Shown here piece after piece: positions 887 to 64,000 of a DNA stretch of 64,000 nucleotides (position 1 is the stretch's first letter; each line of letters begins with the position of its first letter). Origin of the DNA: Watersipora subatra (taxonomy: Eukaryota; Bryozoa; Gymnolaemata; Cheilostomatida; Watersiporidae); the NCBI RefSeq assembly GCF_963576615.1, contig NC_088711.1, positions 11,836,869-11,900,868 on the forward strand, in the 5' to 3' direction. The position numbers and the translations under genes are program-made. The notes beneath the pieces were generated by a model. The model was not told where the DNA came from. It made no database searches and saw nothing but the letters and a program-made list of their open reading frames with translations.

Positions 887-3808
887 AACAGGGCCTTCTT
901 TAGTGCAAGTGTTGACCTCAACAGTGACCTCCTTTAGTGCAAGTGTTGACCTCAACAGTGACCTCCTTTAGTGCAAGTGTTGACCTCAACAGTGACCTCC
1001 TTTAGTACAAGTGTTGACCTCAACAGTGACCTCCTTTAGTACAAGTGTTGACCTCAACAGTGACCTCCTTTAGTACAAGTGTTGACCTCAACAGTGACCT
1101 CCTTTAGTGCAAGTGTTGACCTCAACAGTGACCTCCTTTAGTGCAAGTGTTGACCTCAACAGTGACCTCCTTTAGTGCAAGTGTTGACCTCAACAGTGAC
1201 CTCCTTTAGTGCAAGTGTTGACCTCAACAGTGACCTCCTTTAGTGCAAGTGTTGACCTCAACAGTGACCTCCTTTAGTGCAAGTGTTGACCTCAACAGCG
1301 ACCTCCTTTAGTGCAAGTGTTGACCTCAACAGCGACCTCCTTTAGTGCAAGTGTTGACCTCAACAGCGACCTCCTTTAGTGCAAGTGTTGACCTCAACAG
1401 CGACCTCCTTTAGTGCAAGTGTTGACCTCAACAGTGACCTCCTTTAGTGCAAGTGTTGACCTCAACAGCGACCTCCTTTAGTGCAAGTGTTGACCTCAAC
1501 AGTGACCTCCTTTAGTGCAAGTGTTGACCTCAACAGTGACCTCCTTTAGTGCAAGTGTTGACCTCAACAGTGACCTCCTTTAGTGCAAGTGTTGACCTCA
1601 ACAGTGACCTCCTTTAGTGCAAGTGTTGACCTCAACAGTGACCTCCTTTAGTACAAGTGTTGACCTCAACAGTGACCTCCTTTAGTGCAAGTGTTGACCT
1701 CAACAGTGACCTCCTTTAGTGCAAGTGTTGACCTCAACAGGGCCTCCTTTAGTGCAAGTGTTGACCTCAACAGTGACCTCCTTTAGTGCAAGTGTTGACC
1801 TCAACAGTGACCTCCTTTAGTACAAGTGTTGACCTCAACAGTGACCTCCTTTAGTACAAGTGTTGACCTCAACAGTGACCTCCTTTAGTGCAAGTGTTGA
1901 CCTCAACAGTGACCTCCTTTAGTGCAAGTGTTGACCTCAACAGTGACCTCCTTTAGTGCAAGTGTTGACCTCAACAGTGACCTCCTTTAGTGCAAGTGTT
2001 GACCTCAACAGTGACCTCCTTTAGTACAAGTGTTGACCTCAACAGTGACCTCCTTTAGTACAAGTGTTGACCTCAACAGTGACCTCCTTTAGTACAAGTG
2101 TTGACCTCAACAGTGACCTCCTTTAGTGCAAGTGTTGACCTCAACAGTGACCTCCTTTAGTACAAGTGTTGACCTCAACAGTGACCTCCTTTAGTGCAAG
2201 TGTTGACCTCAACAGTGACCTCCTTTAGTGCAAGTGTTGACCTCAACAGTGACCTCCTTTAGTGCAAGTGTTGACCTCAACAGGGCCTCCTTTAGTGCAA
2301 GTGTTGACCTCAACAGTGACCTCCTTTAGTGCAAGTGTTGACCTCAACAGTGACCTCCTTTAGTACAAGTGTTGACCTCAACAGTGACCTCCTTTAGTGC
2401 AAGTGTTGACCTCAACAGTGACCTCCTTTAGTACAAGTGTTGACCTCAACAGTGACCTCCTTTAGTGCAAGTGTTGACCTCAACAGTGACCTCCTTTAGT
2501 ACAAGTGTTGACCTCAACAGTGACCTCCTTTAGTGCAAGTGTTGACCTCAACAGTGACCTCCTTTAGTACAAGTGTTGACCTCAACAGTGACCTCCTTTA
2601 GTACAAGTGTTGACCTCAACAGTGACCTCCTTTAGTGCAAGTGTTGACCTCAACAGGGCCTCCTTTAGTGCAAGTGTTGACCTCAACAGTGACCTCCTTT
2701 AGTGCAAGTGTTGACCTCAACAGTGACCTCCTTTAGTACAAGTGTTGACCTCAACAGTGACCTCCTTTAGTGCAAGTGTTGACCTCAACAGTGACCTCCT
2801 TTAGTACAAGTGTTGACCTCAACAGTGACCTCCTTTAGTGCAAGTGTTGACCTCAACAGGGCCTCCTTTAGTGCAAGTGTTGACCTCAACAGTGACCTCC
2901 TTTAGTGCAAGTGTTGACCTCAACAGTGACCTCCTTTAGTGCAAGTGTTGACCTCAACAGTGACCTCCTTTAGTACAAGTGTTGACCTCAACAGTGACCT
3001 CCTTTAGTGCAAGTGTTGACCTCAACAGTGACCTCCTTTAGTGCAAGTGTTGACCTCAACAGTGACCTCCTTTAGTACAAGTGTTGACCTCAACAGTGAC
3101 CTCCTTTAGTGCAAGTGTTGACCTCAACAGTGACCTCCTTTAGTACAAGTGTTGACCTCAACAGTGACCTCCTTTAGTGCAAGTGTTGACCTCAACAGTG
3201 ACCTCCTTTAGTACAAGTGTTGACCTCAACAGTGACCTCCTTTAGTGCAAGTGTTGACCTCAACAGTGACCTCCTTTAGTACAAGTGTTGACCTCAACAG
3301 TGACCTCCTTTAGTGCAAGTGTTGACCTCAACAGTGACCTCCTTTAGTGCAAGTGTTGACCTCAACAGGGCCTCCTTTAGTGCAAGTGTTGACCTCAACA
3401 GTGACCTCCTTTAGTGCAAGTGTTGACCTCAACAGTGACCTCCTTTAGTACAAGTGTTGACCTCAACAGTGACCTCCTTTAGTGCAAGTGTTGACCTCAA
3501 CAGTGACCTCCTTTAGTACAAGTGTTGACCTCAACAGTGACCTCCTTTAGTGCAAGTGTTGACCTCAACAGGGCCTCCTTTAGTGCAAGTGTTGACCTCA
3601 ACAGTGACCTCCTTTAGTGCAAGTGTTGACCTCAACAGTGACCTCCTTTAGTACAAGTGTTGACCTCAACAGTGACCTCCTTTAGTACAAGTGTTGACCT
3701 CAACAGTGACCTCCTTTAGTGCAAGTGTTGACCTCAACAGTGACCTCCTTTAGTACAAGTGTTGACCTCAACAGTGACCTCCTTTAGTACAAGTGTTGAC
3801 CTCAACAG
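887..3808. repeat. 34-bp minisatellite, about 86 copies
   Basis: Head-to-tail copies of a 34-bp unit (core gtgttgacctcaacag plus cctcctttagt) run without interruption for about 2.9 kb. Copies differ at a few fixed sites: tgcaag versus tacaag, cagtgacc versus cagcgacc, and a shorter cagggcc form that recurs at roughly 1738, 2284, 2655, 2858, 3367 and 3569. The cagcgacc form is clustered near 1300-1480. These linked variants show that blocks of several units have been copied together. The unit contains the short palindrome gttgacctcaac. No open frame crosses the array. Confidence 0.97.
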
Positions 3809-20785: not shown

Positions 20786-20972
20786 ATGGTGTAGCCTTCT
20801 GGTTAGGTGTGCGTGTCTACAAACTTGCGGTTGCAATCTTTGCAATTTCAAATCCAGTACTATGCGTGTTTTTCCTTCCTGGATTTTAATCACTATAACT
20901 GAACAGACGACAGACGACAGACGACAGACGACAGACGGCAGACGGCAGTCAAACTTTGAGATTTATATATAT
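20786..20972 (+). mobile_element. tRNA-derived SINE
   Basis: The head has RNA polymerase III promoter-like boxes: an A-box-like tctggttaggtg near 20799 and a B-box-like atttcaaatcc near 20845. The tail contains ctataactg, a cagacgacagac run and gagatttatatatatagatag. The same tail order occurs in the copies at 45.7 and 59.7 kb, which defines the family. It does not fold as a normal tRNA. Confidence 0.65.
20903..20948. repeat. 7-bp tandem repeat in SINE tail
   Basis: About six copies of cagacga / cagacgg, the expanded form of the cagacag motif found in the tails of the related SINEs. Confidence 0.9.
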
Positions 20973-21907
20973 AGATAGTGGCTAATGTTCATGGGGCATA
21001 TCAAAATAGGGCATATCAATTTATATATATATAGATAGTGGCTAATGTTCATGGGGCATATCAAAATAGGGCATATCAATTTATATATATATAGATAGTG
21101 GCTAATGTTCATGGGGCATATCAAAATAGGGCATATCAATTTATATATATATAGATAGTGGCTAATGTTCATGGGGCATATCAAAATAGGGCATATCAAT
21201 TTATATATATATAGATAGTGGCTAATGTTCATGGGGCATATCAAAATAGGGCATATCAATTTATATATATATAGATAGTGGCTAATGTTCATGGGGCATA
21301 TCAAAATAGGGCATATCAATTTATATATATATAGATAGTGGCTAATGTTCATGGGACATATCAAAATAGGGCATATCAATTTATATATATATAGATAGTG
21401 GCTAATGTTCATGGGGCATATCAAAATAGGGCATATCAATTTATATATATATAGATAGTGGCTAATGTTCATGGGGCATATCAAAATAGGGCATATCAAT
21501 TTATATATATATAGATAGTGGCTAATGTTCATGGGGCATATCAAAATAGGGCATATCAATTTATATATATATAGATAGTGGCTAATGTTCATGGGACATA
21601 TCAAAATAGGGCATATCAATTTATATATATATAGATAGTGGCTAATGTTCATGGGACATATCAAAATAGGGCATATCAATTTATATATATATAGATAGTG
21701 GCTAATGTTCATGGGACATATCAAAATAGGGCATATCAATTTATATATATATAGATAGTGGCTAATGTTCATGGGGCATATCAAAATAGGGCATATCAAT
21801 TTATATATATATAGATAGTGGCTAATGTTCATGGGGCATATCAAAATAGGGCATATCAATTTATATATATATAGATAGTGGCTAATGTTCATGGGGCATA
21901 TCAAAAT
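20960..21907. repeat. 60-bp satellite, about 16 near-identical copies
   Basis: The unit is exactly 60 bp (gatagtggctaatgttcatg, gggcatatcaaaatag, ggcatatcaatttatatata). Copies are identical except for a g/a change (atggggcata or atgggacata) in a few of them, so the array was recently made or homogenised. The first unit begins in the gagatttatatatatagatag end of the SINE. A 313-codon minus-strand frame exists only because 60 is divisible by three and the unit lacks a stop; it is not a gene. Confidence 0.98.
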
Positions 21908-33319: not shown

Positions 33320-33548
33320 GTAAGTACTGCTTTAACTATAATAGTAACTACAGATGCAAAAGTTCAGCAGAAAATGATAGACAATACATATTGTTAAGTA
33401 AATGAACAGATTGAATTGAGATGCAAACTCTGTACGCTGTGTCATGCTGTTGTTTTTTAAGGAAGTAGCAGTCAGATGATATTGTTTATGATTCAGGAAC
33501 TGCGAGTTGGACATATGACGGGCTCGGATTTTGTCTAAGATATTCAGT

Positions 33549-35576
33549 ATGGAAGTGACAGTCATGTCGTCAACTAACCTGCTTAAAGAATATCGTGAAA
33601 AGTATAAACCACTTGAAACTGAGACAAATCACAAACCGACTTCAGCGATCGTTTATACGTCAGATGTCCAGACGTTGCTCAATAGATATTTGAGCAAGGA
33701 GTGCTCGTCAACAAACTCTGAAGACGTCGTAGATTCTTGTGTGCGAAAGGATGCCACAGAAGACGATAATGTTCTAAGGTCTTGTGACAAAACTGTAGAG
33801 TCAGATGATGAAGACATGTTTGCTGATGACACAAATGACAGTTTGCTTCCTACGTCGATGCTTTCCGAACAGCGCCGTATAACTGTCGATGATGTTATCA
33901 GGAAAGACAGACATTTAGATAAGACGTTGAGACGACACTCGAGCCCTAACAATTACGAGAGTCATCCTAAAATGAGGCAAATGAAAAGACGAGCTTCCTC
34001 ATCACCTGATGGTAAACGACTGCTAATGGTAGACACTAACCTAGGCTTGCCAATTAGTCGTCGTGGGTCTGAAAATTTACGACATTTGAGACGACATGAC
34101 AGCAATATTTCCAATATCAGTGTAGAGTCAAATGGAAGCAACCAGAGTTTAAAAAACGAACTGCTTGACTTATCCGATGAGGATTTTGATTTGGACTTTG
34201 AGATCGACTTAAATTCTTCCAAACAAAGTGATACGGATAGCCAGAAATTATTCTCTCAATTTCAATTAGAAACCGACAGTCAAAAGGATTCAGATAGTCT
34301 TGCAGGCTATGATGAGGTGGACAGCAGCAACTGTGTACACTGTGATTCGGTGAGCACTCGACCTCTGCATTCCACAGATTCCAATCATTCTTTCTGCACC
34401 AAGTGTACCTCCCAAAACAAAGAACGATATGAAACAATAAAGGAGATTTTAGAGAGTGAACTGAGCTATTTGAAGGACTTACAGTTAATACAAAAACACA
34501 TTCATGACATCCTTTTGGAAAATGGCTTGATAAGCTCCAATGACATCGCAATGGTTTTTGGCAATATTCCACAGTTAATAGCAGTCAGCCAAAAGTTTAG
34601 CAGCCATTTATCCCAGCATCTACATCATCTCGAGTCGGAAGGAGACGATAACTACAACAATGCTCGCATTGGCCAGCTCATATGCGATTCTTCCGCAATG
34701 TTTTTGGCCTTTGAAGCGTATTGTTTGAACTATTCGAATGCTGTCACAACTGTAGATCAACTTCGGAAAGAAAATCAGCTTTTAAATCTATTCCTTCAGG
34801 CTTCTCAGAATGACAACAGCGCGTTGAGGCGAATGGATCTTAAAACTTTCCTCATGCTGCCAGTGCAGCGAGTCATGAAGTACCCGCTCTTGCTCAAACG
34901 ACTACATAAAGCAACACGACCTTCTCATTCTGATCGAAAATCTATCGAGAAAGCTAATGAGAAACTAACAGATATTTTACACCACATAAATGCGCAATCT
35001 AAGGTGTTATCCTCTCTCTCTGTCGGTACGAAAGACAACACAAAGCCAACTAAACGTACATCTTTTGAAATAGCACTAACCAAGCTCGTTCTGAACACAC
35101 TTAATTGGCGACACGATGAAATACACTTCCTCAACTCAGGGAAACTTGGCTATCTGCAACCGGCTGACAGTCAGTGGGCTGAGAAGTTAAGGACTTTGCG
35201 TCTTAACACGGGTTATGCGGTGCTCGTCACAAAAGGAAAATTGGATGACTTGCCTAAAAGAGCAAAAGAAGGTCGCTTAATATTTCCTAAGAGCACAACA
35301 GTGACTGATGCAGCGCTGCTCACAGTGAAAAAAGGCAATTCAAGATTGCAAATTGTTGGAGAACCGTATCATCTCGGACAATGCCTCGTATCACGTAATT
35401 CAGAATTCTACGACGTGTGCGAGATCGCTCGAGATTACACGAAGGAGCCTTTCATCATTCGACCGGTTCACGCTAGTGACAAGTGGTACAGAAACCTTAA
35501 ATATTACTCGATGGTGCTTAGTGGACGCAATAGCTGCAGAAGGAATGCGCTAGCAAACATTTTACTACAAATATAA
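33549..35576 (+). CDS. Rho guanine-nucleotide exchange factor (DH domain)
   Basis: Dbl-family exchange factors load GTP onto Rho GTPases at membranes and the cytoskeleton. From the ATG at 33549 the frame gives 675 residues. Residues 1-255 are Ser/Asp-rich and probably disordered, with basic patches (KRRASSSPDGKR). Residues about 261-286 hold CVHC and CTKC pairs that could bind zinc. The DH domain is about 294-483: ETIKEILESELSYLKDL is the first conserved region and MLPVQRVMKYPLLLKRL the third. Residues about 500-675 probably form a PH domain by position, though this is not clear by motif. The exon probably begins at 33548 (acceptor attcag) and runs uninterrupted to the stop. The subfamily is not assigned. 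Confidence 0.85.
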   Translation: MEVTVMSSTNLLKEYREKYKPLETETNHKPTSAIVYTSDVQTLLNRYLSKECSSTNSEDVVDSCVRKDATEDDNVLRSCDKTVESDDEDMFADDTNDSLLPTSMLSEQRRITVDDVIRKDRHLDKTLRRHSSPNNYESHPKMRQMKRRASSSPDGKRLLMVDTNLGLPISRRGSENLRHLRRHDSNISNISVESNGSNQSLKNELLDLSDEDFDLDFEIDLNSSKQSDTDSQKLFSQFQLETDSQKDSDSLAGYDEVDSSNCVHCDSVSTRPLHSTDSNHSFCTKCTSQNKERYETIKEILESELSYLKDLQLIQKHIHDILLENGLISSNDIAMVFGNIPQLIAVSQKFSSHLSQHLHHLESEGDDNYNNARIGQLICDSSAMFLAFEAYCLNYSNAVTTVDQLRKENQLLNLFLQASQNDNSALRRMDLKTFLMLPVQRVMKYPLLLKRLHKATRPSHSDRKSIEKANEKLTDILHHINAQSKVLSSLSVGTKDNTKPTKRTSFEIALTKLVLNTLNWRHDEIHFLNSGKLGYLQPADSQWAEKLRTLRLNTGYAVLVTKGKLDDLPKRAKEGRLIFPKSTTVTDAALLTVKKGNSRLQIVGEPYHLGQCLVSRNSEFYDVCEIARDYTKEPFIIRPVHASDKWYRNLKYYSMVLSGRNSCRRNALANILLQI

Positions 35577-37318: not shown

Positions 37319-50743
<13,425 letters not shown>

Positions 50744-54914: not shown

Positions 54915-55620
54915 AACTTACCATGTATTATATCACCTTTAGTATATCATCTATACCATATCACATATGGCATATCACTAGTAATATATCACCTTTAGTA
55001 TATCATCTATACCATATCACATATAGCATATCACTAGTAATATATCACCTTTAGTATATCAACTATACCATATCACATATAGCATATCACTAGTAATATA
55101 TCACCTTTAGTGTATCATCTATACCATATCACATATAGCATATCACTAGTAATATATCACCTTTAGTATATCATCTATACCATATCACATATAGCATATC
55201 ACTAGTAATATATCACCTTTAGTGTATCATCTATACCATATCACATATAGCATATCACTAGTAATATATCACCTTTAGTGTATCATCTATACCATATCAC
55301 ATATAGCATATCACTAGTAATATATCACCTTTAGTATATCATCTATACCATATCACATATAGCATATCACTAGTAATATATCACCTGTAGTATATCATCT
55401 ATACCATATCACATATAGCATATCACTAGTAATATATCACCTTTAGTGTATCATCTATACCATATCACATATAGCATATCACTAGTAATATATCACCTTT
55501 AGTGTATCATCTATACCATATCACATATAGCATATCACTAGTAATATATCTCCTTTAGTGTATCATCTATACCATATCACATATAGCATATCACTAGTAA
55601 TATATCACCTGTAGCGTATT
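54915..55620. repeat. 56-bp satellite, about 12 copies
   Basis: Units of exactly 56 bp (tatcacctttagtatatcat, ctataccatatcacatata, gcatatcactagtaata). Copies differ mostly at ttagtgta versus ttagtata. All parts are variants of a shorter tatcac motif, which suggests that the 56-bp unit was built from a smaller repeat. Confidence 0.96.
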
Positions 55621-55890
55621 GCCTGTTGCGTATCACTTGTAATATATTACCTGTAACGTATCACCTAGCATATCACCTGTAGGATATCACCTGTAGTGTA
55701 TTCCTTGTAATGTATCACCAGCAGGATATCACCTGTACCGTGTCACCTGTAGCGTATCGCCTGTAGCATACCACCTGCAGCGTACCACCTGTAGAGTAGC
55801 ATCTGTACCGTATCACCTGAAAGGTATCTATCACCTGTAGCGTATCACATGTAGTTTACTACCAATAGCATATCACCTGTAGTGTATCAC
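55621..55890. repeat. Degenerate ~18-bp repeat leading to caspase exon
   Basis: Irregular units of tatcacctgtagcg continue the 56-bp array and stop about 30 bp before the ankyrin-caspase exon acceptor. Confidence 0.9.
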
Positions 55891-55923
55891 TTGCTGTGTA
55901 CAAGAAATGCATTGTTGCAGACT

Positions 55924-57459
55924 ATGGACAGTTTAACGCCAGATTTACAAAGTGGATGTAGACAAGAATTAAAAGACCTGCATGAAAAAGTCATAGCAAG
56001 TGTGCGACGCGGGTGTGCTAAAACCCTGAAAGACCTTCTCCAACCTGTTCGACGAACAAAAAATTGTTATATACTGCTTTCTCGGATTAGTAAGACTGGC
56101 CAATTCCCTCTACACTATTCTATCAATGAGATGGTGTGTGAGGACGGAGAGAAAACTGACAGACTAGACATAGTACGTGTCATCATAGATAGCCTGAGAC
56201 GAGAGGATCGGTACAGACACTTTGAGCTACAGGATAAACTGAACTCGCATACTGCTTTACACACAGCAGCAGTTAATGGTGAGATGGAAGTCATCAGAGA
56301 AATTCTGAATTCCATAACTAGCGTCGAGCAACAAAAATTGATAGACAGGCGTGACAAACACGGACGAACCGTATTGGATTGTACCAACAGAAGGGAGATT
56401 AAGGACTTCTTTAAAACTTTTGAGAACGGACAAGCCATGCCAGATGACAACAGCAGTGATGATGGATGCGCAACCTTGGACCACGATGATCTGGTGTCTC
56501 ACCCTGAACAAAGTGCACATCCAGAAGAGATGATTCCTTGGCTATGGGGGAAAGATGAAGGAGTGGGTACACAAAGGTTTCACCCCGAAACGGTAAATGC
56601 TGAAACCGCTTTCAAGTACTTTGATGAAATGCTCAAATTTGTTAAGGCAGAGAATAGCTATGATGTTTTAATGGATGAGTTGAAAAATTCTAATGGTCAA
56701 ACTATCCTTCATCTTGCAGTAATTCACAGACAAGATCATTTGGTCGAAGAATTGCTCAAAATGCTTCCGAAATCTGAAAGCCTTCAGAAATTGATATTGA
56801 TGCCATGCGGAAAAGGAAAAACATCCCTTCACTACGCAAGTTTAACGAGTTCGTTATCTGTCGTAAACCTCCTTCTAGAGCACTGCACGGGAGTACGACG
56901 GTGGCGCTTGTTGTCAGCACATTGTCTCGAAGGAAAGACTGCTTTACATTATACCTGCCAAGTTGATTCTCTTGATATCGCTCTATCACTTTTACACCAT
57001 TCAGGTGAGAATGACTGGGAGTTGGTTTGTGCAAATTCAAAAAATCTTGCGTGTAAAAGTGCAAAAACAGAAATGAGCATGCTACTGAAGCAGGTAGAAA
57101 CACACTACTGGAAAGCGATATACAGGCGTCCTATGACTCACATATTTTATAACACCTTCGATGACTATCCGCCGCGTACAAAACGACAGGGAGCAGAAGA
57201 AGAGAAAGATCAAATGGTAGAAGCATTTATCAACTTTGGTCAGCAGCCGCAGGTGCATTGTGGGTTCACAGAAGAAAAGTTACGAAGTGAAATTGCAAAA
57301 GCAATTCAGGCGGAGGGAGAGCGCATTTCAGGAATAGTTGTGGTTCTTATGAGCCATGGCGAAGAGTACATAGTCTACGATGAGAACTACAGAGAAATTA
57401 GGCTTCAGAGCATGCTGAATATTTTGTGCCACAATGACTTGCTCAATGGCAAACCAAAG
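55924..57459 (+). CDS. Ankyrin-repeat caspase, partial (large exon)
   Basis: Caspases are cysteine proteases of cell death and inflammation. The ATG at 55924 follows ttgttgcag, a likely acceptor, and begins MDSLTPDLQSGCRQELKD. The frame runs 512 codons to the donor aag/gtaaga in phase 0. Ankyrin motifs are near residues 102-165 (HTALHTAAVNGEMEVIREIL) and 258-375 (GQTILHLAVIHRQDHLVEEL, KTSLHYASLTSSLSVVNLLL, KTALHYTCQVDSLDIALSLL). The caspase p20 part starts near 404 and includes SGIVVVLMSHGEEYIVYDEN with catalytic His478. It stops at LLNGKPK, directly before where the QAC(R/G)G active-site cysteine is expected. No CARD, DED or death domain is visible. The remaining exons were not found in the window. 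Confidence 0.85.
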
Positions 57460-57480
57460 GTAAGATAGATATATAGATTG
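57460..57480 (+). other. Intron donor of ankyrin-caspase gene
   Basis: aaag/gtaagat is a good donor; the frame reaches TAG three codons later, so splicing is required for an active protease. Confidence 0.7.
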
Positions 57481-58506
57481 TAGAGATGCCCCGATTCTAA
57501 TTTCACCAGCCGATTCAGATACCGATTCGATATACCGATTCTTAATGAAAAATAATCCGATTCATATACCGATTCAGATTCTTTTGTGTTGCATAGATAG
57601 TTGTTTATTTGTTATGCAAGTATAAATATAATGCCAAGAAAATATAAATATTAATGTATTTATTTGTTTGTATTTATGAAAAAAGATATACATGTATATA
57701 TATTCACATACTGACATACCGTGCATCTAATAACAAAACAGTCCATGTTTCTTGAAATATGTTATTATTAATGGTAATTACAGTTAGTGGTACAATTTTC
57801 TCTGTGATAATGAAGACTCTTTTCTACTGCTGAACGAACGGCTGCGCCTGTACAAGTCTAAAGCAAATAAATGCGTCTTTTAATTACCGTTAGTGATTCA
57901 AATATCTCAGTGAGACGTCTTTATCTTCTATCACTATCGATGTAGCCAGTCGTACTGAAGGACTCGCACGCTACAGATGATGGAGGGCAGGCTAAACACC
58001 GATAAGCCACTGAGGTTATTTTATGCAATACAAACGATACATCATATCGTCAGGATCAAGAGAGAGATAGATAACTTTATGCATCAACTGCTCAAATTAC
58101 TTTCGCAATGCTAGTAAATAGAAACATTCTTGTTGCTCGTTATGGTTCTCTTGTTTGTGATTGGCTGCAACAAATCATATCGCTGTAATTGGGAAATACC
58201 GCGCTTGGTGATTACGTCCTGACTAAAGCCAAAATATTATGCAGCTGTGTGGATGTTTATTAAGCTATAGACATGAAATATATTGTTAGAAAGGCTCGGA
58301 AATCATTAGATAAAAGCAAGGAACTTGCAGCTGATGATTTGTTATTAAAGTAGCAGGCTGAAATACAGGTTTCTGCTAAATAGTTGATATGTAAAAAGTA
58401 TCTGAAGTGTCCGATTTTTTAAGAAAAGATCGGCCGATACCGATTCAGATACTTTACCCATATCGGCACCGATACCGATTCCGATATTGAAATCGGGGCA
58501 ACTCTA
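57481..58506. mobile_element. hAT MITE with perfect 8-bp target duplication
   Basis: Ends tagagatgccccgatt and inverted tagagttgccccgatt, flanked on both sides by the identical 8-bp sequence atagattg (57473-57480 and 58507-58514). Subterminal accgattc(a/g)gata repeats occur at both ends. 8-bp duplications and such ends define hAT transposons. The 1026-bp element has no transposase frame. It inserted 20 bp after the caspase exon donor. Confidence 0.95.
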
Positions 58507-58559
58507 ATAGATTGATATATAGATATACTAGCTGTATATTGGACAGCTTAGACAAAAAA

Positions 58560-58900
58560 TTGATTTGTATTTAACATATAACAACATTTGCCATTCTAAC
58601 TTTCAAACTACATATCATGAGAAGCGTTTTGTGTAATTGAAATAAATTAAGAGAAAAAATAAAAACAACTGTAAAGGTTTTCATACTTTGTCAAACAACT
58701 GTACCTTTTAAACTTCATATCATGAGGAAATAGTTTTGTGCAAGGACAACTAACATGTAATTAAAAATAAATAAAAGAACTGTAGAGGTTTTCAAACAAC
58801 TTTAAATTTAAAATTTCATAACTTGAAAGAAGTGTTTCGTTGAAATAAATTAGAAGGAAAAATTGAAATGTAAAGGTGTTTAAATGTAAATGTAAAATTA
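58560..58900. repeat. Degenerate ~110-bp tandem repeat, three copies
   Basis: Blocks cttcatatcatgag, gttttgtg, aaataaa and aactgtaaaggtttt recur three times with many changes. Confidence 0.65.
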
Positions 58901-59451
58901 TTAGCAAGTAATAGCTAAATATAGTCGATTTCACTACGATTACAATCAAAAATTACTTTGTATAAAATTATATGAGTTCAATTCGTTTCAGTGTTGGCAT
59001 GCAAAAATTGGCATGTAGGCTAATATCGTAAGCTATAGACGTACATAGAGTGGTATGGAAACCCATAGTCATTATCTAATGCAGTCACCTTCTAGTAAAA
59101 ATCATCATCATTAAAAATAGTACCAAAATACTATGTTAACCTTAGTAACTATAGGTACCTACAATGACTTTACCGCATTTTTTGGTTATGATCTGTGGGC
59201 CCAAGATAATATAACATTACAATGTATTATGTGAAGAATTTTTACCTTCGAGACAGACGTGTAACATAACTACTGAAACAAACCTAAATGAATTTAGTTT
59301 ACTAAACGCATACTTGAAAGAAGTTTTAGTGTGTATTTTAATAAACTTCAAACTTTTAACATTAAATTTATCATTGCTAAACGTTTTTATTATAACGGAT
59401 ACCGGATATACCGTATAACGGATACGGATAACTCGCCATGGCAAGTTCAGC

Positions 59452-59700
59452 GACGTATATTTTTTAATAACGTATATAATCAGTACACAGATCACCAAAT
59501 TTTAAATTCGAGATAAATTATTGTCTATATCGTTGGGCGGAATCAATTAGCCCTAACGAAAAAAAAACCAAGAAGAATTGTGTCGCATAAACTTAGGTCC
59601 TAAAATATTTCCTAACAGAGGCATCGTATCGTGTGGGCGCAAGCGTGTAGCTAACATAATTAGCATGCGCATGGTGTATATGTAAACACCTTTGGTCAAT
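59452..59700 (+). repeat. Dispersed repeat, copy 1
   Basis: Contains aacgtatataatcagtac, aaattttaaattcgagataa, cttaggtcc and gcatgcgcatg(g)tgta. It matches 61096-61290 in the same orientation. No coding content; family unknown. Confidence 0.8.
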
Positions 59701-59703
59701 ATG

Positions 59704-59878
59704 CTGTTCTAGCTGAGTGGTAGAGTGTCTGGATAAGAAACTTGTTGATGCATTCGTCGTGAGTTCAAATCCATCAAAACATGGAATTTTAATATCAAGA
59801 TTTTAATAGCTATAGCTGGACAATCAAAATGACAAACACACATGCGACCAATTTTGAGAAATATATATAGATAGATAA
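59704..59878 (+). mobile_element. tRNA-derived SINE
   Basis: A-box-like agctgagtggtagagtg and B-box-like gagttcaaatcc, then ctatagctggacaatc, gacaaacacacatgcgacc and an atatatagatagat end as in the other copies. Confidence 0.65.
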
Positions 59879-59896
59879 TGTGTGGTGTATGATAGT

Positions 59897-60085
59897 TAGA
59901 TAAGTTTAACTTTATTTACACCGGTCAGTGCTGCTTAAAGCAAACTAGACTATGAGACAAAAACAAAAAATAGTAAAGTAAATAATGTGTAAGAGGAAAG
60001 CTATTTTTGCATAACGATGTTCTATAATGCAAATTGGCAAGATGTTGGTGTCTAGTATAAGCCACAGTATAAGGTGTTGTGGTTT
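59897..60085 (+). repeat. Dispersed repeat, partner of 39136-39300
   Basis: Shares aactttatttacacc, gctgcttaaagcaaa, ttttgcataacg and gatgttggtgtct with the copy in Sp17-like intron 3. A 75-codon minus-strand frame overlapping it is not a gene. Confidence 0.7.
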
Positions 60086-60235
60086 TTTAGAGAAGTAGTA
60101 ATGTACTGGATAGTCAAACAGATTGTAGATACAATTACAGTATTTTAAACAGCAAATGTTTAAAAAACACATTTAGCTTCTCAGCATTTAGACACTGATA
60201 GTAACTGTCCATATCAGGTAAGACCTGATATTAGC

Positions 60236-60275
60236 CCTGTCCCAAATTATGTACGTGTACATAATTTGGGACAGG
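60236..60275. repeat. 40-bp near-perfect palindrome
   Basis: cctgtcccaaattatgtac and its inverse are separated by two bases. A symmetric site of this length could extrude as a cruciform or be the touching ends of a deleted inverted-repeat element. Confidence 0.92.
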
Positions 60276-60778
60276 TATTTTAGATAATGATACGTAATAA
60301 CAATAGTTGCATCATTTATATGCAAGTTCTTATTTAAATTATAACAGTTTTTAAAAAAAGCTTTACAAAAAATAATGTTAACATTGATTATAGTTTATTT
60401 GCTATAGCTAACATACTGATATATCAAACTAATGAAATGCCAAAGCATTACAATATGCGGGCTTATGATTGGTCCAACTACAGAGAGCAATGGCTATAAT
60501 AATTAGGGCTTTTCAGTACCTTTTTACAATTGGTTAATTTGGCGGCAAATAAGGTATTCAAGTTTTCAAAAAATCTGACATGCTAAAAAATTGTGATTTA
60601 GATGATGAGCTTCTGTATCCTATTCTACTTACTTCAAATAATTTTCATAGTTTTTTGGACTACCATGCATTGTTGAATTTAGCAATATGATAGGCATTAT
60701 TTCTAGTTAGTTTTATTATGTATATATATATATATATATTTTTTTTTTAAGGCATTAGACATTGTGTAACTTCTGAGA

Positions 60779-60846
60779 ATACATGTATTTAATATTTAAC
60801 AAAATATTAAATATTAAATACATGTATTTAATATTTAACAAAATAT
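60779..60846. repeat. AT palindrome with direct repeat
   Basis: tacatgtatttaatatttaa occurs twice directly, with its inverse between, giving overlapping palindromes. Confidence 0.85.
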
Positions 60847-61095
60847 CAATACAACAAAGATGTTTTAATTTGAACTCAACGAAATAACGTAAAAATATTT
60901 TTTAAACGAACAAAATCTTTGTTCGTATTTAATGATTGTGGAGCGCAAGGTACCAAATCAGAATCTAAAAACCATAATGAAGCTGGAAAAAGTCTTCTGG
61001 GCAGCTGGAATAAATAAGTAGTGAAATAAATGTAGATGTAAAATAAATAGCAAGTATGTAAACTAAGAAATGTCGATGCAATGTATATATATATA

Positions 61096-61290
61096 TATAT
61101 CAGTAACGTATATAATCAGTACAAAAATTGCCAAATTTTAGGTTCGAGATAAATTATTAGCCCTCAAGAAAAAAAATGAAGAAGCATCGCGTTACATATA
61201 CTTAGGTCCCAAAAATAATTCTGTATCGTAACTCATGAACGCAAGGCTAAAATAATTAGCACACGCATGATGTATGCGGTATATGAAAAC
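61096..61290 (+). repeat. Dispersed repeat, copy 2
   Basis: Same orientation as 59452-59700; preceded by a (ta)n run as copy 1 is preceded by TA-rich DNA. Confidence 0.8.
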
Positions 61291-61587
61291 AGAAGTTTAA
61301 CAGAAGGGTAAGAAGTGCAAAAAGAGAAGATACGTAGGTGTATTTATCCTTTGTAAACTCATTTCAGCGTTACGCTTGATTGTAGTGAATTGTATCTACT
61401 TGTTCTGTCTTTTCATGCTTATAGAGCTTGTGTAATAATGAGGCATACTCATTCACCAATCACCTTGCTTGAAACAATTACAGTTGTGCATGAGACTCAT
61501 TCAGTACAAAACAACTTGTACGCAGAACCCATTTGCAAGTGGCTAGTCAGCGCTGACTTCCACAACAATAGTTTGACAAATAGTGTT

Positions 61588-62665
61588 TGAAGCACATCAA
61601 TTAAAGCATCAATTATGTCAGCACTGTTTCAGCTTATTCAGGTTCTTCAATATCATGGCTTTCAAATGAGCCATTGTTTGACATGATGAGACAGACATTG
61701 GTTGGTGTTTATAGGATTTTCCCAAAGCTCTACCACAAAAATGTTTTATGATATAGGCTCGCAAATTATGACGTCGCAATTTTCAAATTCTGTGTTGGGT
61801 GCTCTAACTGCTTATTTTAATCGCTTACCGCTTATACAATGTATTTATCAACTACGATAATGACGCTAGTGGCAGGTGAAGGTCGGACGACTCCAGAGAA
61901 CCAATGAAGATGACAAAGGAATCAGTGTCATTAGCTCTCCATGTGCAGATTATTTCTATGATAAATAGCTCAGATTCCAAGCATCATACTATGTTTTCCT
62001 GATGATATTATGCACTAGCCCTCTCTTTTTATTGTGATGTTGAGGGGCACGACTGAGGCTAATTAATTTCAAGCATTGTGGGATCTCGCGAGAGTGCAAT
62101 CTACATATAGTCCTAGGGCCACGCCGCTGCAGGTCACAATTTAATCGATGTGATTTCATTACCTTTATCAACGACAATATACTTATTGAAGCATAATCAT
62201 ATTTAGAAAGCAACATGGAAAGCGATATGAATTCTTCAGATAATAATACTATACTACAACTAAGGGTGAAAAAAGCAAACTCTAACAATCACCGAAGATC
62301 TATTAACCCAGAACATGTGTTTGTATTGGTCGGGTGTTAGCACGATCCTCAGGCATTGTTGATTATTTAGAATCCTAGTTTATTATTAGCGCTCTCTGGG
62401 TTTAAGAGCACCGATTGTCACAGAAAAGCGCAGCGTCAATGGCAGCGAAAGGGATCGACGGCCTAAGGCTAAATGCTAATTATGACATCACATTGTGGGA
62501 ATGACAACCAAGTGTTTTTTTATTGCAGGACATACTTGTGACACCCTGTTTTTCATAGTTCTATTATTCTTTGTGTATTGAATATAGGCTCATTTGAAAG
62601 CCAAGACTCTGAAGTACTGAAATATATGATAAAAGTACTGATATAATTGATGTGCTTTAAAATAA
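61588..62665. repeat. Fold-back element about 1.1 kb
   Basis: The left arm (61588-61665: catcaattatgtcagcac, ggctttcaaatgagcc) is inverted at 62590-62665. Similarity continues inward with gaps (tatgacgtcgcaa versus inverted ttatgacatcaca). The small frames inside, including 99 codons on the minus strand, show no domain. Confidence 0.75.
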
Positions 62666-62669
62666 CTTT

Positions 62670-63390
62670 CTCTGCTTAAAGAATGAATATTAGATGGAAG
62701 ATTGTAAAGCAACTAGCAATGATATTTTCAAAATAAATTTTGTATGTAATTTGTACATGTCACATAAGTTGAAATGAGTGAAAAATCTAACTGTCCAGTA
62801 AAAAAATTATTACACAAACCATATATATTTATAAGTTATTATATAAATTTAATACAAGCACGGCAAACCCACCTGAACTCACTAGCTTTGGCAGAACATA
62901 ATCGAATATTCTAAGTTAGAGGAGACAACTACTGCTTGCAGTCACATATTTATCGCTTAGTTGTAATAAAAATGTGCCACCAGCCAGTATCTAGTGTTAA
63001 TGGTAAAAATAACACTATGTTATTCACATGGCTCGCTTAAAATTTATGAGTGGCTCGTGTCATACAAGACTTTGATAAGAAATCTGATAGCTAGCTGAGC
63101 CATTAGTGTTCCCTGTAACAATATTAACTCACACGATACATGATTTTACTTGTTGCGTATTTTTTAAGCTGAACTTTAAGAATAACGCTTTTCAAACGTA
63201 ACCTATATGTTGTATCATTCATTCGATTTGATCGATTACTTGTTGCCATTTTTATGATTCTTGTATGGCATAATTTAAAAAAATTCTGTTTGAAATTAAA
63301 ATATCATTAATAACTCACCATTTCAAATTTTTATTCCAAAAAAACTACTCTTTCCATGAAAACGTTTAATATGATCAGACCCGCTGTCAT
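62670..63390. other. No gene recognised
   Basis: AT-rich; nothing supportable. Missing caspase exons (a frame around QAC(R/G)G) were looked for here and not seen. Confidence 0.4.
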
Positions 63391-63394
63391 TAGA

Positions 63395-63590
63395 AAACAA
63401 AAAGCCAATCAGCTTCAAGCCAATCAGCTTCAAGCCAATCAGCTTCAAGCCAATCAGCTTTAAGCTAAACAGTTTTAAGCCGATCAGCTTTAAGCTAAAC
63501 AGTCTTAAGCCAATCAGCTTTTAGCGAATCAGCGTTAAGCCAATCAACTATAAGTCAATCAGCCTTTAGCCAATCAGCTTTTAGCCAATG
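63395..63590. repeat. 14-15-bp tandem repeat, about 13 copies
   Basis: Units caatcagcttcaagc, with variants ctaaacagttttaag and caatcagcttttagc. The first three copies are identical; later ones are diverged. Confidence 0.93.
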
Positions 63591-63599
63591 GCAGAACAG

Positions 63600-64000
63600 T
63601 ATGTTTGCTAATCATAAAAACCACTACTCATTAATCTAAATAATGCTTACCATATACAAGCAGTTTAAAAACTATTTCTTTTTTATTTTCGAGTTCATTT
63701 AAACAATATAATGTAGGTAAAACTATGTAGTCCTGTCTACTCTAGTTTAGTGTCTGTTAGATTAGAGGATTGGAATATTCATTCAATAATTGAAAACTGC
63801 CTTCATACACTTTGGAGACCGCCTGACTTAATTCGTAAAACCACGAAGCTTTGCTTTCTGTCGTCAAACTTCAGCGGCATAAAATTACATTATAGTAGAT
63901 ATTTTCTTCAACTACTTTGTTTATGAAAGAAATACATAAGTTGTAAGAAAAGTTGAATAACAGAGGGTTTTTATCACACAATGATACATTTTATTTTTGT
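63600..64000. other. No gene recognised
   Basis: AT-rich tail of the window without a supported feature. Confidence 0.4.

Follow-up and report, generated by a model that had tools for sequence, protein, structure and literature searches.

The contacts that normally assemble initiator caspases are made by CARD, as in caspase-2 and -9, or by DED, as in caspase-8 and -10. A locus of the bryozoan Watersipora subatra raises the question of whether ankyrin repeats could stand in for these modules, in a gene that is complete and maintained and in front of a protease that is active. The locus lies in a window of 64,000 nucleotides (C4:11836869-11900868) of a genome that spans 783.7 Mb over 239 contigs, and we analysed it together with 140 kb of downstream and 20 kb of upstream sequence, giving a chain of 224 kb. 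An initial annotation, made from the letters of the window, had described one exon encoding ankyrin repeats and the beginning of a caspase. The features of the gene as we now read it are collected in Table 1.

Table 1. Parts of the first ankyrin-caspase gene of the array, in positions of the window or, beyond its end, in window-equivalent positions
Feature	Position	Strand	Remarks
Exon 1, gene copy 1 of 9	55924..57459	+	512 codons, ends in phase 0
Ankyrin block 1	56089..56436	+	residues 56-171, limits approximate; motifs at 59, 108, 147
Linker joining the ankyrin blocks	56437..56613	+	residues 172-230
Ankyrin block 2	56614..57108	+	residues 231-395, limits approximate; motifs at 258, 298, 337
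Caspase large subunit, first part	57109..57459	+	residues 396-512; Peptidase_C14 1.8e-7
Arg421, aligned with the caspase P1-pocket Arg	57184..57186	+	alignment to ancestral caspases and caspase-3
Catalytic His478 (SHG)	57355..57357	+	caspase alignment; 6 of 6 copies
Intron 1	57460..64000 in the window	+	GTAAGA donor; acceptor TTTTTGTAG; genomic end at window-equivalent 64002
Exon 2 (QSC)	64003-64078 (window-equivalent)	+	76 nt, just past the window end
Exon 3 (p10)	64685-65016 (window-equivalent)	+	stop 65017-65019

Ankyrin repeats and a caspase p20 in one exon

The exon limits given by the initial annotation are exact, and its statement that both domains are read from one frame, with no join made by gene prediction, holds. 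The 512 residues encoded from the ATG at 55924 up to the GTAAGA donor at 57460 lie in an open frame of 537 codons (55855-57468, + strand), as against an average of 127 and a maximum of 177 for the longest stop-free run in 50 simulated 64-kb sequences (Markov-1, local composition). The Pfam run on these residues that the annotation had proposed returned both families at significant values, Ank_2 at 8.7e-20 over three stretches and, in the same frame, Peptidase_C14 at 2.4e-6 over residues 414-512. Scanned as overlapping pieces, residues 1-229 and 193-389 matched Ank_2 by themselves (4e-6 and 4.2e-17), and residues 390-512 matched Peptidase_C14. The annotation was right that ankyrin repeats are present, and its figure of at least four helix pairs was an undercount, since the exon has six motifs in two blocks, one of them, at residue 147, degenerate (TVLD). 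Between the blocks, residues 171-205 carry a net charge of -10.

We found no CARD, DED or death domain in exon 1 (Pfam, E up to 1). In the 6.5 kb upstream, compared among seven copies of the gene, no added N-terminal domain was seen, and the longest frame that is open and aligned in all of them has 43 residues. This is too short for a single-exon death-fold domain, although a short or more distant upstream exon may exist; the death-fold prodomain of initiator caspases was thus not seen in exon 1 and these 6.5 kb. The 5′ side of exon 1 is abutted by a tandem array (54925-55619, a 56-bp unit repeated 12.4 times) with degenerate 14-bp relatives up to 55890. Searches of genome_contigs, viral_contigs and phages, whose scope is bacteria, archaea and viruses, returned no relatives of exon 1. 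Single-sequence AlphaFold models of exon 1 and of the p20 alone had a mean pLDDT of 39.2 each and gave no usable fold.

The catalytic and p10 exons

The initial annotation had expected a downstream exon with a QAC(R/G)G cysteine and a p10. Both exons exist, so that its reading withstands the refuting case of a missing catalytic exon, and the motif is a different one, QSCLT. A search for QACxG found no catalytic exon in the window and the 20 kb downstream, and only three chance-like matches in the 224-kb chain. The locus was therefore read for a time as half a caspase, a reading that was dropped because the QACxG motif had been too narrow. It was a comparison of the downstream segments of six copies that revealed exon 2, as a conserved frame directly 3′ of the acceptor TTTTTGTAG. 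This exon begins with VLVLQSC, and the spliced junction reads GKPK and then VLVLQSC, at a position where solved caspases read KPK and then (I/L/M)F(I/F)(I)QAC. Its interpretation as a last exon of 61 residues was replaced by the present one, with an inner GTAAGT, GTAAAT or GTAAAC donor and an in-frame p10 exon behind the acceptor TTTCATTTAG. The second intron measures 606 bp in copy 1 and 491-737 bp across the copies. Joined in this way, copy 1 encodes 648 residues, and all six copies held in full give stop-free models of 648-650 residues with conserved splice sites.

The match to Peptidase_C14 grows with each exon, from 31.5 bits for the p20 to 47.5 with exon 2 and 60.5 with exon 3 (PF00656, cut-off 21.4), and then runs over both p20 and p10, from profile position 11 to 230 of 233; the joined model of copy 5 reaches 71.5 bits. 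When exon 3 was shuffled (n=3), the scores were 47.1, 47.3 and 49.0 bits, compared with the 60.5 of the real sequence. By itself, exon 3 gave no Pfam hit with E up to 10, and none of its three PDB matches is to a caspase. A profile of the six copies likewise failed to pick up a p10 in the remaining caspase loci examined (best outside E 0.68). Judged by these scores, exon 3 is a very divergent p10. Further 3′, a frame of 149 residues (L009:2031-2477, window-equivalent 66031-66477) is present in five copies of the unit; it was rejected as a part of the gene, as one of the five copies found carries a stop, and the 134 residues scanned have no Pfam match.

The p20 matches a reconstructed ancestral effector caspase at 2.2e-5 and, more weakly, caspase-2 and caspase-3. 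The arginine of KRQG and the histidine of SHG are in register with the ancestral alignment, and Arg421, which we take to be the P1-Asp pocket Arg of the p20, aligns with the RxG arginine of caspase-3 and of the ancestral caspases. The catalytic His announced by the initial annotation (SHGE) is found within SHGEE at residues 477-481. Arg421, His478, Gly479, Gln517 and Cys519, the last within QSC, are invariant in the six joined copies. The QACxG pentapeptide is absent from all six; each reads QSCLT, with LT in place of xG. The substrate loop of the p10 is short, reads STSRGKKSQPG and contains no recognisable SWR, the motif usual in this loop; another caspase locus of the genome, L001, does show SWR in the loop alignment, which rests on few sequences. 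No Asp occurs between residues 364 and 413 (365-412), and the linker from Cys to p10 contains three, at 522, 524 and 538.

Activity is not assured, given that QSC is followed by LT, that the p10 is unmatched alone and that SWR is not recognisable. Nevertheless, QSC is compatible with activity: HeLa cell death was promoted by a caspase-3-like protein of amphioxus that has QSCRG (PMC3196919, excerpt), and in the bryozoan genome two further caspase loci, L011 and L012, have QSCSGG. Overall, the catalytic dyad argues for activity and the p10 loop for altered or lost specificity, and the chance that the protease is active seems somewhat better than even.

By the count of domain matches, the caspase family of this genome is very large. 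Scoring 150 of 494 candidates gave at least 158 Peptidase_C14 matches at E <= 0.001, clustered on C9, C8, C10, C6, C2, C3 and C4. Two caspase-like loci, L001 (at about 1852) and L008 (C2:69553333-69553932), have open frames in which the motif of the catalytic Cys is replaced, by DASFG and DANSQ, respectively, and are likely dead caspase homologues. Further fusions had been suspected from long frames (471 to 739 residues) tabulated for other caspase loci, and were dropped after five of the entries had been checked: in four (L011-L014) the tabulated frame was too large, with just 92-104 residues open around the match, and in one (L015, 84 residues) the table was correct.

Nine copies in a tandem array

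From the window, the initial annotation could recognise neither the atypical active-site motif nor the fact that the gene is the first of nine tandem copies. Among the 84 of 477 candidates that were scored, exon 1 gave at least 73 matches in the genome, of which nine are full length and free of inner stops, all within C4 11892792-12082100. The other 64 are confined to residues 68-359, that is, to the ankyrin region. Exon 3 gave nine matches (nine of nine candidates scored), all on C4 and also without inner stops, and the two exons alternate, one exon 3 lying behind every exon 1. Sequence was read for exon 1 of the first seven copies and for exons 2 and 3 of the first six, the remainder being taken from the genome-search tables. 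The seven full-length copies of exon 1 within the 224-kb chain are all open, end at a GTAAGA or GTGAGA donor, and have TTGCAG followed by ACT ahead of the ATG. Clusters of matches confined to the ankyrin part lie on C2 (13.2 and 22.5-23.0 Mb) and C8 (47.9-49.3 Mb), with frames tabulated as 700-2411 residues.

Selection was measured over all pairs of the six joined copies, which are not independent of each other, and gave pS 0.092, pN 0.036 and pN/pS 0.39. This ratio differs among the regions, with 0.50 in ankyrin block 1, 0.70 in the linker (the highest among the long regions), 0.40 in ankyrin block 2, 0.24 in the p20 (the lowest) and 0.32 in exon 3; exon 2 alone, with 25 codons, gives 1.12 and no visible constraint. 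Counted over the first, second and third codon positions, variable sites number 44, 29 and 55 in residues 1-395, 12, 12 and 26 in the p20, 3, 2 and 2 in exon 2, and 10, 7 and 15 in exon 3; in exons 1 and 3, third positions are thus the most variable. The regional differences in the ratio come mainly from pS, and pN changes little from one end of the protein to the other (0.030-0.044). We had considered that the ankyrin part might be under diversifying selection, which these values do not support. Gene conversion among the copies is likely, since copies 2 and 6 hardly differ (dS 0.02). Given the intact frames, the conserved splice sites and the ratio of 0.39, the genes of the array look maintained under overall purifying selection.

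The duplicated unit extends upstream to an exon with an IQ motif. This acidic, repeat-rich exon (49856-50743 and L009:5731-6519) was duplicated along with the ankyrin-caspase genes, and its IQ motif is weak (18.1 bits, below the cut-off of 20.3); frames that look IQ-like by eye lie at 38642-38944, 39273-39560 and 46593-46883. A non-autonomous element of 1,026 bp (57481-58506; region 57473-58514) begins 21 bp 3′ of the copy 1 donor. It has near-identical inverted ends, a perfect 8-bp target duplication and no second copy in the 224-kb chain, is likely a recent insertion, and is presumably hAT-like, a label we base on its end sequence and the 8-bp duplication. Elsewhere, the window contains a long RhoGEF-domain exon (33519-35576, + strand, 8.7e-41), pieces of LINE-type reverse transcriptase (39922-42121 on the - strand and 43674-44549 on the + strand; RVT_1 3e-24, with zf-RVT matches under the cut-off) and large tandem arrays at 887-3808 (34-bp unit, 86 times) and 20964-21907 (60-bp unit, 15.7 times).

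Possible modes of action and comparisons with other animals

With the fusion in one frame, the three exons bounded by conserved splice sites and the conservation of the His/Cys dyad and of Arg421 established, we lean, by a little, toward an initiator-like caspase in which the two ankyrin blocks stand in for recruitment by CARD or DED and which is activated by induced proximity. The single chain would be inactive at rest. The ankyrin blocks would bind a partner, either an adaptor of the host itself or a ligand that is foreign or stems from stress, and the bound partner would gather two or more molecules, so that their proximity turns the protease on, as happens with the adaptor-bound CARD or DED prodomains of initiator caspases. 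The initial annotation had proposed that the repeats sense a ligand or pathogen, or serve as a scaffold, and so drive dimerisation of the protease, a role that is likewise hypothetical. Because the stretch from residue 365 to 412 lacks Asp, self-cleavage is unlikely to free the ankyrin part, which probably stays attached to the protease, and the subunits could be separated by cuts at the three Asp residues between Cys and p10. The short substrate loop of the p10 predicts an altered cleavage preference. Like initiator caspases, the protein has a long N-terminal interaction module, a p20 with SHG, a catalytic Cys and a p10, and activation by induced proximity is probably common to both. Unlike them, it has ankyrin repeats instead of a death fold, QSCLT instead of QACxG, and a short p10 loop with no SWR.

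A different possibility, which we regard as rather unlikely, is that the protein cleaves little or nothing and that, much like c-FLIP, it pairs with active caspases to serve as a scaffold or dominant regulator. QSCLT and a p10 with no recognisable SWR, too divergent to score alone, would fit such a pseudo-protease, as would the existence of L001 and L008, open caspase-like genes with a replaced Cys motif, in the same genome. However, none of the residues His, Cys, Gln and the P1-pocket Arg varies among the six copies, the p20 has the lowest pN/pS of all regions, and the QSC caspase of amphioxus was able to promote cell death (PMC3196919, excerpt). If, on the other hand, the protease is active, it could be of an executioner-like type, cleaved and activated by another caspase, with ankyrin repeats that do no more than position the enzyme or retain its substrate. 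The nearest solved relatives, which include reconstructed effector caspases and caspase-3 and also caspase-2, and the Asp residues between Cys and p10 are consistent with this. We nevertheless consider it improbable, since a long interaction module with no Asp between it and the p20 seems more initiator-like.

It is also conceivable that the array is decaying, or that ankyrin and caspase pieces adjoin by chance and have no function, and the lack of constraint on exon 2 by itself would agree with that. This is very improbable, however, as none of the nine copies of exon 1 and nine of exon 3 has an inner stop, the joined frames are intact in six of six with the ratio given above, and the variable sites of exons 1 and 3 are concentrated at third positions. 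An assembly artefact is hardly credible, for the same fusion recurs in nine copies that differ mutually at many sites, and both domains lie within one uninterrupted exon.

Our searches of the open-access literature found no ankyrin-caspase gene, which fits the view of the initial annotation that the combination is uncommon; database entries with this architecture and no publication could exist. The lone phrase match was part of the name of a domain of NLRP1, which is of CARD type (PMC13429693, excerpt). The accessible text of papers on a coral (PMC4715348), a placozoan (PMC6321704), a sea anemone (PMC5094078) and prokaryotes (PMC3501461) contains no such fusion. In sponge TRADD-N proteins, ankyrin repeats or, alternatively, caspases follow death-fold domains at the C-terminal side, and in the excerpts of that paper the two are alternative partners, never named as an ankyrin-caspase fusion (PMC8195603).

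Other animals do join unusual modules to caspases. For instance, amphioxus has "shortcut" fusions, TNFR-caspases and LRR-caspases, and for the former cDNA has confirmed the architecture. They resemble the bryozoan gene in that a recognition module is joined straight to the caspase and an adaptor is bypassed, and they differ in the module and in that QACxG is reportedly kept (PMC2575513, excerpt). In bivalves, caspase prodomains include DSRM in an oyster (PMC7836458) and, in Mytilus coruscus, FN3 or PB1 (PMC10967218); in the text of these papers, "ankyrin" and "ank", respectively, occur 0 times. Prodomains other than death folds, expanded families and tandem duplications are thus shared with bivalves, although the tandem arrays described for Mytilus consist of two or three genes, compared with nine here (PMC10967218, excerpt). 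A protein that only works alike is RNase L, whose ankyrin repeats hold its effector latent until the ligand 2-5A drives dimerisation; there, the effector is a pseudokinase-nuclease with a known ligand, and here, it is a protease (PMC4730318, excerpt).

By this analogy, the protein might be a self-contained sensor-protease whose ankyrin blocks directly bind a ligand, either foreign or made under stress, and in which dimerisation driven by that ligand switches on a caspase with a changed substrate preference, a proposal that we hold to be quite doubtful. If it were true, the nine copies would represent parallel switches for death or signalling that need no CARD or DED adaptor. In any case, the fusion suggests a route from recognition to proteolysis within one protein. 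Amphioxus LRR- and TNFR-caspases already suggest such direct wiring, and a maintained ankyrin-caspase family would show that animals also wire other recognition modules directly to caspase activation. The nine natural copies and the unusual active site make activation driven by ankyrin repeats testable.
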